In this document: positions 35,745 through 61,186 of the stretch, one piece after another
How the letters are laid out: every line of letters begins with the position of its first letter
How positions within the stretch are numbered: the stretch's first letter is position 1
Source: an uncultured Flavobacteriaceae bacterium
Lineage (GTDB): Bacteria; Bacteroidota; Bacteroidia; Flavobacteriales; Flavobacteriaceae
Assembly: GCA_947493535.1 (NCBI GenBank)
Contig: CANLRK010000001.1
Span: 1 to 64,000 of the forward strand
Direction of reading: 5' to 3'
Length of the DNA stretch: 64,000 nt
Notes under the pieces: model-generated
Database searches by the model: none
What the model saw: only the letters and a program-made list of their open reading frames with translations
What the model was told of the DNA's origin: nothing
Position numbers and translations under genes: made by a program

Positions 35745-36569
35745 TTAAATTTTAAATGTTACTACTGGTCTTTTTGCGTGATTTACTAAATCCTCGCTAA
35801 TACTTCCATTAAAGAAGTGTGACAACCCTTTTCTTCCGTGTGTACTCATAGAAATAACATCCGCGTTTATTGAGCTAGAAAAGTTCAATATTCCTTTTTC
35901 TACACTTACATCGTTATAAATATTTAACGTATAATCTTCTAATGGTATACCCAATAAAAATGCATTCATTCTATCTTCAGACTCTGCAGTTGTCATAAAA
36001 TTAGATGGTGTATTTACCATCAATAAATGCATTTTCGCTCCTGATTTTTTTGCAAACTCAACAGCGTTTAAAAAGGAAGCTCTATACTCTTCAGTAAACT
36101 CACTAGCAAACACTAAATCGTTTATACTAAAGTTATCATTATCACCTTTAATTACCAAAACAGGTACTTCAGAAGTACGTACAACTTTTTCAGTATTTGA
36201 ACCGATAACCATTTCTTTAAATCCTGACGCCCCTCTTGACCCCATTACAATTAAATCAATTCCTTTATCTCGTGCCGTATCTACAATTCCTTCAAAAGCG
36301 ACATTATTTTGTACTCCTTCAAATACATCAACACCTTCTAAATAATCTTTATCTAAGAATTCTTGAAATTTTTGATGAGCCAATTTCATGAAAAACATTG
36401 CCTCAGGCAATTCACTTGTTTCATGCATAGGATCTACCATATCAAAAGGCAATTCTATTAAGTGTAATACATGTAACTCACTTTTATGTTTTTTTGCTAA
36501 TTGTGCGGCTACTTTTAAAGCTGATTCTGCTCCAGAAGAGAAATCCGTAGGGACTAATATTTTTTTCAT
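35745..36569 (-). CDS. Universal stress protein with two UspA domains
   Basis: 274 residues holding two tandem Usp domains (about 1-145 and 148-274). The first begins KKILVPTDFSSGAESALK and has the nucleotide-binding segment VMGSRGASGFKEMVIGSNTEKV (G-2x-G-9x-G-S, shown only up to its key residues). The second ends with MSTHGRKGLSHFFNGS, a similar but variant loop. Tandem Usp proteins bind ATP and help cells survive stress or growth arrest; the specific role is unknown. It is a single-gene unit divergent from the rimP operon. Confidence 0.92.
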   Translation of the reverse strand: MKKILVPTDFSSGAESALKVAAQLAKKHKSELHVLHLIELPFDMVDPMHETSELPEAMFFMKLAHQKFQEFLDKDYLEGVDVFEGVQNNVAFEGIVDTARDKGIDLIVMGSRGASGFKEMVIGSNTEKVVRTSEVPVLVIKGDNDNFSINDLVFASEFTEEYRASFLNAVEFAKKSGAKMHLLMVNTPSNFMTTAESEDRMNAFLLGIPLEDYTLNIYNDVSVEKGILNFSSSINADVISMSTHGRKGLSHFFNGSISEDLVNHAKRPVVTFKI

Positions 36570-36648
36570 AGTAAAATTTAAAGATTAGTTGTTTTAAAAC
36601 ATAAATATACAAAAAATAGTCATAAATATTGGCTTAAGTTAATTTAGT

Positions 36649-36679
36649 TTTCGTTGTTACAAAAAAAGATGTATATTTG
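36649..36679 (+). promoter_or_regulatory. Promoter of the rimP-nusA-infB operon
   Basis: TATATTTG (36672-36679) is an exact TAnnTTTG box. TTTC at 36649-36652, 19 bases upstream, fits the -33 TTTG with one mismatch. Transcription would start near 36686 and give a leader of about 57 bases before rimP. Confidence 0.65.
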
Positions 36680-36692
36680 CAGTGCATTTTTT

Positions 36693-36743
36693 ATGTTTGA
36701 TATGATAAATGAGGGGACGGAAGTCCCCTCTTTTTATAACTAA
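36693..36743 (+). CDS. Putative 16-residue leader peptide of the rimP operon
   Basis: An ATG at 36693 opens a 16-codon frame (MFDMINEGTEVPSFYN) whose TAA at 36741-36743 shares a base with the rimP ATG (TAATG). It begins about 7 bases after the expected transcription start, and the whole terminator hairpin lies within it. Translation of the frame would unfold the hairpin. This is an open frame with suggestive placement only; there is no coding evidence beyond that. Confidence 0.3.
   Translation: MFDMINEGTEVPSFYN
36711..36735 (+). terminator. Leader terminator (attenuator candidate) before rimP
   Basis: GAGGGGAC (36711-36718), loop GGAA, GTCCCCTC (36723-36730) and then TTTTT. This GC-rich perfect 8-bp stem with a GNRA-like loop is a canonical intrinsic terminator, yet it lies between the promoter and the rimP start codon, ending 8 bases before the ATG. 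It therefore probably attenuates the operon. It cannot serve the upstream gene, which is on the other strand. Confidence 0.85.
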
Positions 36744-37216
36744 TGGCAACTATGTTTAAGGAAAAGGTTACTAATTTATTACAAGCAGGATTAGAAGAAA
36801 AACCCGATTTGTTTTTAATCGATTTTTCTATTGGCGCTGGTAACAAAATAGCTATCACATTAGATGGGGACAACGGTGTTACTGTTGAAGACTGCATATT
36901 TATCAGTCGTGCTATAGAACACAACCTAGATCGTGAAGAAGAAGATTTTTCACTAGAGGTAGCTTCTTGTGGAGCTACGAGTCCTCTTAAAACAGTTAGA
37001 CAATACAAAAAAAATGAAGGACGTACCTTAGCTATAAAATTACAATCTGGTAAAACTATAGAGGGTAAACTAACTAATGTGACTGAAGAAACAGTAACCT
37101 TAGAATGGAAAGCAAGAGAACCTAAACCTGTAGGAAAAGGAAAGGTTACAGTACAAAAAATAGAAGAAATAGCTTACAACAACATTGTTGAAGCAAAAGT
37201 TGTGATAAAATTTTAA
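36743..37216 (+). CDS. rimP: Ribosome maturation factor RimP
   Basis: Assists maturation of the 30S subunit. 157 residues (or 154 from an ATG at 36752). The N-terminal domain has DFSIGAGNKIAITLDGDNGVTVEDC, here cut at the conserved D-G-V-x-D/E-C positions, and EDFSLEVASCGATSPL matches the LEVSSPGxxRPL element. A C-terminal SH3-like barrel follows (GKTIEGKLTNVTEETVTLEW). It starts the conserved rimP-nusA-infB operon; nusA begins 14 bases later. Confidence 0.95.
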   Translation: MATMFKEKVTNLLQAGLEEKPDLFLIDFSIGAGNKIAITLDGDNGVTVEDCIFISRAIEHNLDREEEDFSLEVASCGATSPLKTVRQYKKNEGRTLAIKLQSGKTIEGKLTNVTEETVTLEWKAREPKPVGKGKVTVQKIEEIAYNNIVEAKVVIKF

Positions 37217-37230
37217 TTTAGATAAATGTT

Positions 37231-38463
37231 ATGGAAAACATTGCATTAATAGAGTCTTTTTCTGAGTTTAAGGATGATAAAATGATAGATCGTGTTACAT
37301 TAATGGCGATCTTAGAAGATGTATTCAGAAATGCTTTAAAAAAGAAATTTGGTGATGATGATAATTTTGACATTATCATTAACCCTGACAAAGGTGATTT
37401 AGAAATCTGGAGAAACAGAATTGTTGTTGCTGATGGTGAGGTAGAAGAGCCAAATCAGGAAATTTCATTATCTGAAGCTCGAAAAATTGAACCAGATTTT
37501 GAGGTTGGTGAAGATGTATCCGAAGAAGTTAAGTTAATTGATTTAGGACGACGCTCAATTTTAGCTTTACGTCAAAACTTAATTTCAAAAATTCACGAGC
37601 ATGACAACACTAACATTTACAAGCAATTTAAAGATTTAATTGGAGATCTTTATACTGCAGAAGTTCATCATATTCGTCATAGAGCAATCATTTTAGTTGA
37701 TGATGAAGGAAACGAATTAATACTTCCTAAAGAAAATCAAATCCCATCAGATTTTTTCAGAAAAGGAGAAAATGTAAGAGGTGTTATTGAAAGTGTGGAA
37801 TTAAAAGGTAACAAACCAATTATAAAACTTTCAAGAACTGCCCCTGAATTTTTAGAAAAATTATTTGAACAAGAAATTCCTGAGGTATTTGACGGTTTAA
37901 TTAATGTGAAAAAAGTAGTCCGTATTCCTGGAGAAAAAGCAAAGGTAGCTGTAGATTCTTATGATGATAGAATTGATCCTGTAGGAGCTTGTGTAGGAAT
38001 GAAAGGTGCACGTATACACGGTATAGTGCGTGAGTTAGGAAATGAAAATATTGATGTTATTAACTACACTAACAACCCACAATTATTTATTACCAGAGCA
38101 TTAAGCCCTGCCAGAGTAAGTTCTGTGAAAATTGATGATGAAAACGGAAGAGCAGAAGTAATGTTACGCCCTGAAGAAGTTTCTAAAGCAATTGGTAGAG
38201 GAGGTCAAAATATACGTTTAGCAGGAAAGCTAACAGGTTATGAAATTGACGTATTCAGAGAAGGTGTGGAAGAAGATGTAGAATTATCAGAATTCTCAGA
38301 CGAAATTGAACAATGGATTATTGATGAATTTGCAAAAGTTGGTTTAGATACTGCAAGAAGTGTATTAGATCACGATGTAGAAGACTTAATAAAAAGAACA
38401 GATCTTGAAGAAGAAACTGTACTTGATGTAATTAGAATATTAAAAGAAGAATTTGAAGACTAA
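37231..38463 (+). CDS. nusA: Transcription termination/antitermination factor NusA
   Basis: 410 residues with the NusA N-terminal RNA polymerase-binding domain (about 1-130), an S1 domain (about 135-205) and two KH domains (about 230-355; GACVGMKGARIHGIVRELGNE with the GxxG loop, and AIGRGGQNIRLAGKLTG). The long acidic C-terminal repeats of E. coli NusA are absent, as in most bacteria. NusA promotes pausing and hairpin-dependent termination, which is notable because its own operon carries a leader terminator. Confidence 0.97.
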   Translation: MENIALIESFSEFKDDKMIDRVTLMAILEDVFRNALKKKFGDDDNFDIIINPDKGDLEIWRNRIVVADGEVEEPNQEISLSEARKIEPDFEVGEDVSEEVKLIDLGRRSILALRQNLISKIHEHDNTNIYKQFKDLIGDLYTAEVHHIRHRAIILVDDEGNELILPKENQIPSDFFRKGENVRGVIESVELKGNKPIIKLSRTAPEFLEKLFEQEIPEVFDGLINVKKVVRIPGEKAKVAVDSYDDRIDPVGACVGMKGARIHGIVRELGNENIDVINYTNNPQLFITRALSPARVSSVKIDDENGRAEVMLRPEEVSKAIGRGGQNIRLAGKLTGYEIDVFREGVEEDVELSEFSDEIEQWIIDEFAKVGLDTARSVLDHDVEDLIKRTDLEEETVLDVIRILKEEFED

Positions 38464-38520: not shown

Positions 38521-41343
38521 ATGGCTGAAAAAAAAGTAATGAGGCTTAATAAGGTGTTAAGAGAATTAAATATTTCTCTAGACAGAGCTGTTGAGTTTTT
38601 AGACTCCAAAGGAATTCAAATCGAAGCTCGTCCTACAACAAAAATATCTGGTGATATTTACCAGGTATTATCTGATCAGTTTCAGGTGGATGCAAATAAA
38701 AAAGTAGCATCAAAAGAAGTAGGAGAAGAAAAACGTAAAGAAAAAGAAGCGCTTCGTCTAGAGCGTGAAAAAGAAGAAGAGCGTAAAAAGGCTGAAGAAG
38801 CAAAAAAGCAAGAAATTATCAAAGCTAAAGCTTCTTTATCAGGCCCTAAAACTGTTGGCTCAATTAATTTAGATGCAGACAAATCTCAGCCAGAACAACC
38901 TCAAGAAACTGCAACTAAAGAAGAGCCGAAAGAAACTACTTCAGCACCAGAAGTAGTTGAAACCCGTAAAACAGAAGTTCAAAAGCCAAAAGTCCTAAAG
39001 ACTATTGATTTAGACAAGCCTAAAACTTCTTCTAAAAAGAAAAAAGAAGCCACTAAAAAATCAGCTGAAACACCTCAACAAAAACCAGCTGACAAAAAAA
39101 TAGAGAAAAAAGAAGCTACTAAAGTTGCCGATAAAATAAAAGACACTTCTAGTGAAGAACCTATAGCGGACGAAAAGGTGACTACACAATATCAAAAGTT
39201 ATCTGGACCTAAAATGACAGGTCAAAAAATAGATTTATCTCAGTTTAATAAAACCAAAAAGAAAACTGATTCTAAAAAATCAGGTAGCACCGATAAAAAA
39301 CCAAAACGTAAACGAATTAGTAAGGCAGGCGCTACCGATTCAAACACCGGAAACAACAACCGAGGAAATAACAAACACCACCAAAGAGGCGGAAAAGGAA
39401 GAAGAGCTCAGGTTGTAAAAGAAGAGCCGTCTGAAGCAGACGTACAAAAACAAGTACGTGAAACCTTAGAAAAACTTCAAGGAAGATCAAACAAATCAAA
39501 AGGAGTTAAAAATCGTCGTGACAAAAGAGACTTACACCGTCAGAAAAGACAAGACGAGATGGAAGCTCAAGATGCAGAAAGCAAAGTATTAAAGGTAACA
39601 GAATTCGTTACCGTTAATGAAGTTGCAACCATGATGAATGTTCCTAACACCAAAATCATTGGAGCTTGTATGTCTTTAGGGATTATGGTAACCATGAACC
39701 AACGTCTTGATGCCGAAACATTAACTATTGTTGCTGAAGAATTTGGATACGAAGTAGAATTTGTTTCTGCAGACTTAGAAGAGGCAATTGTTGAAATAGA
39801 AGACAAACCAGAAGATTTAAAATCAAGAGCCCCAATTGTAACTGTAATGGGACACGTTGACCATGGTAAAACATCTTTATTAGATTATATTCGTAATGAA
39901 AATGTAATTGCTGGTGAATCTGGTGGTATCACACAGCATATTGGAGCTTATGGTGTACAATTAGATAACGGACAAAAAATCACATTTTTAGATACACCTG
40001 GTCACGAGGCCTTTACTGCAATGCGTGCACGTGGAGCTCAAGTTACCGATATAGCTATTATTGTTATTGCCGCTGATGATGATATTATGCCGCAAACAAA
40101 AGAAGCAATTTCACATGCTCAAGCTGCTGGTGTACCAATTATTTTTGCTATAAACAAAATAGATTTACCAACTGCAAACCCTGATAAAGTTAAAGAACGT
40201 TTAGCAGGTATGAACTTACTTGTTGAAGACTGGGGTGGTAAAATTCAATCGCATGATATTTCAGCAAAAAAAGGAACAGGTGTAAATGAATTATTAGAAA
40301 AAGTATTGCTTGAAGCGGAATTACTAGACTTGAAAGCAAACCCTAATAAGATTGCCTCTGGAACTGTTGTTGAAGCTTTTCTTGATAAAGGGCGTGGTTA
40401 TGTGTCTACCATTTTAGTTGAAGCTGGTACCTTAAAAATTGGTGATTACTTATTAGCTGGTAAACACACCGGAAAAGTTAAAGCCATGCAAAATGAACGT
40501 GGTGATAATGTAGAAGTAGCAGGACCATCAACACCAGTTTCAATATTAGGTTTAGATGGTGCACCACAAGCTGGTGATAAATTTAATGTTTTTGAAGACG
40601 AAAGAGAAGCAAAACAAATTGCCTCTAAGCGTACTCAATTACACCGTGAGCAATCTGTAAGAACACAACGCCATATTACACTTGATGAAATAGGACGTCG
40701 TATTGCCTTAGGCGACTTTAAAGAACTTAACATAATTCTTAAAGGAGATGTGGATGGTTCTGTAGAAGCCTTAACTGATTCGTTCCAAAAACTTTCTACA
40801 GAAGAAATTCAGGTAAACATCATTCACAAAGGAGTTGGTGCTATTACAGAATCTGATGTTTTATTAGCTTCTGCTTCTGAAGCGATTATTATCGGATTTA
40901 ATGTTAGACCAGCTGGTAAAGCTAGAGAAGTAGCCGACACAGAAGAAATTGACATCAGAACTTATTCGATCATCTATGATGCTATTAACGACTTAAGAGA
41001 CGCTATGGAAGGAATGCTTTCTCCTGACATTAAAGAAGAAATTACTGGTACCGCAGAAGTTCGTGAGTTATTTAAAATCTCTAAAGTAGGTACGATTGCT
41101 GGTTGTATGGTAACTTCAGGTAAAATTATAAGAAACGGAAAAATACGTATCATACGTGAGTCTGTAGTAATTTTTGACGGAGAACTTGCTACCTTAAAAC
41201 GTTTTAAAGATGATGTAAAAGAAGTTGCTAAAGGATATGATTGTGGTATGCAAATTAAAAATTATAACGACCTTAAAGAAGGTGATATTTTTGAATGCTA
41301 CCAAGAAGTAGAAATTAAAAAAACTTTAAAAAAGCAACGCTAA
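38521..41343 (+). CDS. infB: Translation initiation factor IF-2
   Basis: 940 residues, a GTPase that places fMet-tRNA in the P site. An N-terminal IF2N module (about 1-55) is followed by a long Lys/Glu-rich linker (about 60-350) with three related motifs: [13 protein letters not shown] (106-118), [13 protein letters not shown] (155-167) and [16 protein letters not shown] (227-242). A second IF2N-like domain lies around 360-420, then the G domain with GHVDHGKTS (444-452), DTPGHEAF and NKID, then domains II-IV. It closes the operon with a strong terminator. Confidence 0.97.
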
Positions 41344-41366: not shown

Positions 41367-41407
41367 AAAAAATCCCTTTAAATTGATTAAAGGGATTTTT
41401 TGTTTTT
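41367..41407 (+). terminator. Terminator of the rimP-nusA-infB operon
   Basis: A perfect 15-bp stem (41367-41381 and 41387-41401, core ATCCCTTTAA/TTAAAGGGAT, loop ATTGA) ends in a T tract. It starts 24 bases after the infB stop. Confidence 0.92.
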
Positions 41408-61135: not shown

Positions 61136-61167
61136 AAAAAGCCAGTACTTAAAGTACTGGCTTTTTT
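61135..61167. terminator. Bidirectional terminator (exosortase pair / OmpH)
   Basis: GCCAGTAC (61141-61148), loop TTAAA, GTACTGGC (61154-61161), flanked by six A and six T that extend the stem. It serves the convergent xrtF pair and the OmpH gene. Confidence 0.93.
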
Positions 61168-61186
61168 ATAGTATTAGTGTAAAGTA

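Follow-up and report, generated by a model that had tools for sequence, protein, structure and literature searches.

The window, by which we mean the whole 64,000-nucleotide stretch analysed here, carries rimP, nusA and infB in succession on its forward strand, preceded by a short leader, and the features of this locus are as follows.

36672-36679, forward strand: TATATTTG, read in the sequence and matching TAnnTTTG, the -7 element of housekeeping promoters in Bacteroidota
36693-36743, forward strand: 16-codon open reading frame (ORF) MFDMINEGTEVPSFYN, earlier proposed as a leader peptide and judged here to be a chance frame, being neither conserved nor enriched against shuffles
36711-36730, forward strand: terminator stem-loop GAGGGGAC-GGAA-GTCCCCTC, 8 bp with 6 G-C, computed at -15.7 kcal/mol
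36731-36739, forward strand: imperfect U-tract TTTTTATAA, five U and then A-U-A
36743-37216, forward strand: rimP (Pfam RimP_N and DUF150_C), its conserved start probably the ATG at 36752
37231-38463, forward strand: nusA (Pfam NusA_N and KH_5)
38521-41343, forward strand: infB, encoding IF-2 (Pfam IF-2 and GTP_EFTU)
41367-41401, forward strand: terminator-like hairpin of ordinary type 3' of infB, the probable operon end

A preliminary description of this DNA had reported the promoter, a GC-rich terminator (36711-36735) and an ATG at 36693 whose frame closes with a TAA overlapping an ATG, and all of these were recovered at the same positions. It had also taken the ATG at 36743 as the rimP start, and the overlap with the TAA at 36741-36743 is indeed present in the window, but this start is not conserved: the sister species G060 has TCA at the codon matching 36743 and its rimP begins at the ATG matching 36752, which makes 36743 doubtful and 36752 probably the true start. 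Upstream of rimP lies a gene of the universal stress protein family (35745-36569, assigned with Pfam) in divergent orientation, so the leader hairpin cannot end a transcript coming from upstream, and a role as terminator of the upstream gene is ruled out for the window. In 79 of 80 named loci rimP has nusA after it, and in the 80th the contig stops right behind rimP. Elsewhere in the window (61136-61186), a near-perfect AAAAAGCCAGTACTT(A/T)AAGTACTGGCTTTTT hairpin sits between two convergent ORFs and serves both strands.

Both arms of the leader stem (36711-36718 and 36723-36730) are perfectly paired around the GGAA loop, and the elements follow one another as promoter, GAGGGGAC-GGAA-GTCCCCTC-TTTTTATA and rimP-nusA-infB, with 12 or 21 nt between hairpin and rimP depending on whether the ATG at 36743 or that at 36752 is used. 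Transcription probably starts at about 36684-36688, and the 59-nt leader from this putative start to rimP folds at -18.8 kcal/mol, compared with a shuffle mean of -8.5 (z -3.83), a stability matched by none of 200 shuffles. When the leader is truncated inside the stem its fold reaches only -4.7 kcal/mol, and across three lengths of the window leader no fold other than the terminator occupied the G-rich arm. The U-tract has six U in nine bases, while 14 other terminator-like hairpins that follow genes in the window have a median of seven (range 6-8), which places the leader at the low end of the range but still inside it.

We then compared the rimP upstream regions of Flavobacteriaceae, using a sample of 149 genomes of which 140 gave a rimP match and could all be read upstream, with the nine lacking a match excluded. 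A hairpin followed by a U-tract stands ahead of rimP in 140 of the 140, recognised in 122 by a regular-expression motif (GA[GC]4AC...GT..T[CT]), in 8 by a hairpin and U-tract detector, and in 10 by eye; used on all regions, the detector was positive in 130 of 140 and in none of 20 base-shuffled sets. The exact palindrome occurs in 109 of the 149 genomes, once in each, against 1/149 for a reversed-pattern control; 109 of the 140 rimP upstream regions contain it, and a relaxed GGG(R0-2)C...G(Y0-2)CCC+TT pattern was found in 116 of 140 regions and in 0/140 reversed controls. The 18 stems outside the motif, which include AGGGGGGAC/GTCCCCCCT, GAGGGGAT/ATCCCCTC, GAAGAC/GTCTTC, AGAGAC/GTCTCT and a bulged variant, GAGG[C]GAC/GTCCCTC, with the stem-loop of L220 being poor, were left out of the position and spacing statistics (n=122). 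Among these 122 leaders TAnnTTTG, described as the flavobacterial -7 box (PMC9723704), lies upstream of the stem in 121, at a median TTTG-to-stem distance of 27 nt (10th-90th percentile 25-29), and in the family the end of the stem is a median of 15 nt (range 10-108) from the rimP ATG. Likewise, all 80 named loci match the motif, 67 with exact GAGGGGAC/GTCCCCTC arms and 12 with GAGCGGAC/GTCCGCTC; these loci had been selected because their rimP is close to that of the window, and at least four of their genomes, recognised by identical upstream DNA, recur among the 140 family regions.

A separate phylum sample contained 11 family genomes in which we searched with model R1, and 9 of these gave a match at rimP. 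The two that were missed, G203 and G230 (loci L304 and L305), carry a GAGGCACGC/GCGTGCCTC stem at the same place, with the same TTTTTATA and the flanks AATGAGG...CCTCTTTTTATA kept, although the GGG/CCC-type relaxed letter pattern of the rimP-leader is absent from them; a further family genome (G344) has the usual stem. The two replaced stems indicate that the inner letters can be exchanged without loss of place, pairing, stem foot or U-tract. The hairpin is, on this comparative evidence, real and strongly conserved, and the leader peptide is not conserved. A promoter-proximal intrinsic terminator ahead of rimP-nusA-infB, as first described, is supported.

Beyond the family, rimP regions were read in 42 of the 57 genomes with rimP in the order sample and, from the phylum sample, in all 16 that belong to the class and in 22 of the 84 that do not. 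The exact palindrome was present in 17/42 regions from other families of the order, 5/16 from other orders of the class and 0/22 from the wider phylum, while the detector found a hairpin with U-tract in 36/42, 15/16 and 15/22, respectively. The 15/22 figure comes without a chance control, and GC-rich genomes could yield some of it by chance; the regions that the detector missed (6/42, 1/16 and 7/22) include hairpins, judged by eye, whose loops exceed its limit; and among the 36 order matches that in L251 is a different hairpin, the exact motif being present there too. Variants of the form GGGGGC/GCCCCC, which occur in related families, and GGGAAC/GTTCCC are also seen. When 198 genomes of the class were scanned, 41 had the palindrome with TTT after it (control 0). 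Of these 41, 37 do not belong to the family, and in 35 of the 37 it lies just upstream of rimP (5/5 by reading, 30/32 by coordinates); the others are G399, in which the exact palindrome lies away from rimP, and G441 (81% complete), which has no rimP match. Model R1, a looser tool than the exact palindrome, also matches away from rimP in G158 (38.9 bits), G235 (36.6 bits) and the window's own genome (29.8 bits), and G187 has a second match of 36.1 bits away from rimP.

Three side observations concern other lineages. In six loci from several families outside the class, one of them (L296) judged by eye, a different stem, with GTGGG in one arm and CCCAC in the other and T behind it, lies ahead of rimP and is possibly a second form of the same leader. 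In six loci from three genera of another family of the order (f2), the stem is replaced by a hairpin of AAGGC...GCCTT or GGC...GCC type which, by eye, has a loop of ~10-12 nt and is followed by TTTT. Finally, none of 10 sampled genomes of 0.3-0.6 Mb from a further family of the order (f44) gave a rimP match, making rimP loss in these reduced genomes possible.

Among the 122 motif leaders the loop is 3-7 nt long (5 nt in 94), stem pair 4 is G-C in 111, G-U in 8 and C-G in 3, and pair 1 is G-C in 112 and G-U in 10. In covariation alignment A1 (140 rows, 132 distinct, with about nine longer-loop rows out of register and partly scored as unpaired), 6 of 8 pairs change on both sides, a number reached by 0 of 500 shuffles, and there are 13 such cells compared with 1.9 in shuffles. 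Pairing holds in 94.3% of cells, against 46-74% (at most 73.8%) when the alignment is slid, and its covariation score of 0.127 lies above the slid maximum of 0.103; slid versions did match or exceed A1 in the number of both-side-changed cells (17 at -2, 13 at -1 and 21 at +1), of pairs changed on both sides (6 at -2) and of further pair types (17 at +1 and 15 at +2). A second alignment, A4, which is model-fitted from the 61 best of 100 chosen sources, includes other families and leans towards structure, contains 15 both-side-changed cells, where shuffles give 1.9 and slid versions no more than 5, with its further pair types reached by 13 of 500 shuffles. Alignment A3 was left out of the counts because it contains opposite-strand matches. 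Compensated stems, G-U pairs and loops of variable length point to an RNA element rather than a DNA operator. Promoter, stem and U-tract stand in fixed order, with both conservation and covariation behind them.

The U-tract is conserved together with its imperfection. Positions +1 to +4 after the stem are T in at least 120 of 122 family leaders, and the interruption that follows is nearly as constant, with A at +6 in 99, T at +7 in 121 and A at +8 in 108. Among 202 motif loci (122 and 80), 19 (two of them identical) are separated from the rimP match by over 45 nt, measured from the hairpin, and all 19 keep the TTTT[AG]TT interruption, which is therefore not a by-product of the start-codon region. 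On the other side of the stem, position -1 is T or C in 103 of 122 leaders and A in only 9, whereas each of positions -2 to -7 is A in 45 to 74 of 122; with A so rare at -1, the stem does not extend into the U-tract. The weaker the stem, the more U there is among the first nine bases (Spearman 0.56), and the uninterrupted U run also tends to be longer, though this is less clear (Spearman 0.25), both over 140 leaders with kinship ignored, and in one group a single C-to-T change alters both partners of this trade-off.

Taken together, we consider it likely that this intrinsic terminator represents the rimP-leader in Bacteroidota. It would end a fraction of transcripts before rimP, and its leakiness would make it the site of NusA-dependent feedback. 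RNA polymerase would start ~25-30 nt before the stem and then make the hairpin, and a fraction of rounds would release an RNA of ~50-55 nt ahead of rimP. A strong stem with a G-C base and a distally interrupted U-tract could make the terminator leaky and NusA-dependent, so that at high NusA there would be more termination and less rimP-nusA-infB expression, whereas at low NusA the polymerase would pass through; such a circuit would require neither an antiterminator nor a leader peptide. In a model built on B. subtilis, NusA acts where the U-tract is suboptimal and interrupted in its distal part, and dependence on NusA alone is proposed for terminators whose stem base is G-C (PMC8060035). However, the window stem is strong and its U-tract lies within the range of the other window hairpins, so it may terminate well without NusA. 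NusA feedback is our best guess for the mechanism, by analogy with other bacteria, and the anatomy would equally suit RimP, IF-2, NusG or constitutive damping. In most lineages the stem letters are conserved more closely than pairing needs; one possibility is a factor that reads the stem, with NusA as the published candidate, although two genomes have replaced the inner letters.

Among the other readings the one that survives best, while still unlikely, is a constitutive damper in which the terminator sets a fixed low read-through without feedback. It would account for the lack of a visible antiterminator and the weak fold of the leader cut inside the stem, for a strong stem offset by an imperfect U-tract, and for the changeable stem letters of G203 and G230. 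However, retention through the whole class ahead of the same operon favours regulation, as does the NusA autoregulation of nusA in B. subtilis, as reviewed in PMC12288461.

Binding of the GAGGGGAC/GUCCCCUC duplex by an RNA-binding operon product other than NusA (RimP or IF-2), controlling either termination or rimP translation, is improbable. The excess conservation of the stem letters, the single copy of the palindrome wherever it is present, and the fact that RimP is also mentioned by Naville and Gautheret (PMC2965389) would all suit such a factor, but family stems with other letters exist (GAAGAC/GTCTTC, AGAGAC/GTCTCT, and GAGGCACGC/GCGTGCCTC in G203 and G230), and we lowered our estimate of this reading slightly because of the last two.

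A further reading arises from the foot of the stem. Counts of frames and stem-foot bases were made on 119 leaders (the 122 minus three without a promoter or start), or on 117 after removal of two with short spacing. AT stands immediately before the stem in 56 of 117 leaders compared with 11.8 +/- 3.2 in shuffles, so that an ATG ends on the base with which the stem begins (36709-36711 in the window). The frames that follow this ATG are not conserved. A Shine-Dalgarno role for GAGG was also considered. An AUG placed in this way (AUGAGG...) might let a 30S initiation complex block the hairpin, giving an attenuator that senses initiation, and this would involve IF-2, which the same operon encodes, would require no conserved peptide and could operate in many lineages; the AATGAGG is also kept in G203 and G230 despite their changed inner stem letters. 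Against it, the AT excess partly reflects, in our estimation, the pyrimidine preference at -1, and it may largely come from this need together with A-richness and shared ancestry, and outside the family only 6 of 27 stems have an ATG at the foot. We regard initiation sensing as very unlikely.

The preliminary description had also proposed a leader-peptide attenuator, in which ribosomes on the ORF beginning at 36693 would open the hairpin and so make the operon respond to translation capacity, and it had suggested aligning rimP upstream regions for both hairpin and frame. That alignment bore out one half of the proposal, since the hairpin is kept with compensatory changes, and went against the other, since the frame is broken. 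In the window the frame does span the stem and its stop overlaps an ATG. In G060, however, the first ATG is followed directly by TAA and the second opens a 20-codon frame that runs past the rimP start, all with the hairpin intact, and the window's frame-0 ATG ORF across the hairpin is found in only 8 of 117 leaders, the window included. ORFs that span the hairpin and end within 4 nt of the rimP start number 11 of 117 against 7.4 expected, and 43 of 300 shuffles scored as high. Some ATG frame crosses the hairpin in 69 of 119 leaders, 12 of which end within 4 nt of rimP, and in 6 of 119 a frame ending there begins from an ATG other than that at the stem foot. Frames of any kind across the hairpin are enriched (67/117 against 39.1, with 0/300 shuffles as high), but the AT excess before the stem can account for most of this. 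In addition, the window ATG would lie only ~5-9 nt past the putative transcription start; for F. psychrophilum, PMC9723704 gives a median 5' UTR of 24 nt and 5.5% of leaderless mRNAs. The leader ORF contains no run of regulatory codons. The comparison refutes the leader-peptide reading, with the frame broken or unconserved while the hairpin is kept, and we give the 16-codon ORF scarcely any credence as a regulator. The least credible reading, in which a dimeric repressor would bind the palindrome as a DNA operator near +25, is rejected: the dyad is perfect at the DNA level in the window and would suit it, but the spacer can be anything from 3 to 7 nt, the symmetry of the DNA is lost wherever the stem has a G-U pair, and a U-tract follows on the sense side.

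Returning to NusA-dependent termination, the closest known system is the rimP-leader of Naville and Gautheret (2010), which they call the most ubiquitous transcription attenuator and for which NusA feedback is their favoured mechanism (PMC2965389). The window element fits a mode of action like that of the rimP-leader, and it has the anatomy described in that paper: a terminator ahead of rimP-nusA-infB with a G-rich 5' arm, a C-rich 3' arm and a T stretch, a distance to the gene (12 or 21 nt in the window, 10-108 nt in the family) within their 4-130 nt, and, among the three lengths of the window leader that were folded, no visible antiterminator. Their stem motif is specific to the leader, and here the palindrome is present in one copy in 109 of 109 palindrome-bearing family genomes; outside the family it lies at rimP in 35 of 37, G399 being an exception. 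The published motif reads GGGc...gCCC (c and g printed in lower case); the family stem GAGGGGAC/GTCCCCTC reads GGGGAC...GTCCCC in the window, with no literal GGGC...GCCC, and related families have GGGGGC...GCCCCC. The words Bacteroidetes and Flavobacteri- are absent from the main text of PMC2965389, whose supplementary species lists may include Bacteroidota. Using the Rfam model RF01770 (rimP) with its 47-bit gathering cut-off, we found 0 of 31 family genomes and 1 of 14 named control genomes above the threshold; it was not among the matches to 36400-37400 of the window up to E = 1, and among the matches listed for the family it was below threshold only. Other Rfam models with sub-threshold scores in 36400-37400 are sraA, L20_leader and STnc50 at the leader and, within nusA, two snoRNA models; all of them look like chance matches or matches to a terminator in general.

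Within the family, the text of PMC9723704 places a 5' element upstream of rimP in F. psychrophilum, also present in other Flavobacteriaceae genera and without an Rfam hit. Like the window element it is structured and transcribed, and the text describing it gives no mechanism, sequence or link to the rimP-leader. This was the one prior mention found in main texts among the matches listed, and no further title on a rimP element in Bacteroidota appeared among the matches listed for open-licence papers, so the earlier remark that such leaders are little described in Bacteroidota looks fair. What is new here is the spread of the element through the class Bacteroidia, its conserved imperfect U-tract and the rejection of the leader ORF. 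The mechanism of the rimP-leader is still mostly a proposal, and the stem is nearly fixed in most Bacteroidia lineages; NusA feedback in the phylum is directly testable via one short leader, for which compensated stems, replaced stems, bulged stems with long U-tracts and G-U forms are on offer as natural variants.

For B. subtilis, a review states that NusA stimulates termination in the leader of its own gene and thereby autoregulates nusA (Mondal 2016, cited through PMC12288461), and termination-based autoregulation reported there would be the counterpart of what we propose for the window. In S. agalactiae, the rimP leader gives a short terminated RNA and a long transcript from one start, with termination placed 31 nt downstream (PMC4448216), whereas ~50-55 nt would be expected here. 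For E. coli, two terminators, t1 and t2, are described upstream of rimP (PMC6511841), and its sequence reads GGGC-TTTAG-GCCC-TTTTTTT directly before the gene, so that compared with the window its rimP-proximal terminator has a shorter stem, a longer U-tract and a further terminator-like hairpin upstream. The suggestion that NusA-promoted termination is the likeliest feedback agrees with PMC2965389, PMC4448216 and PMC12288461, as far as these sources describe it, the NusA dependence in the window being drawn by analogy. The attenuator is real, widely conserved and already conceived, and most likely it acts as the feedback brake already known from the rimP-leader, not as a novel switch based on a leader peptide.
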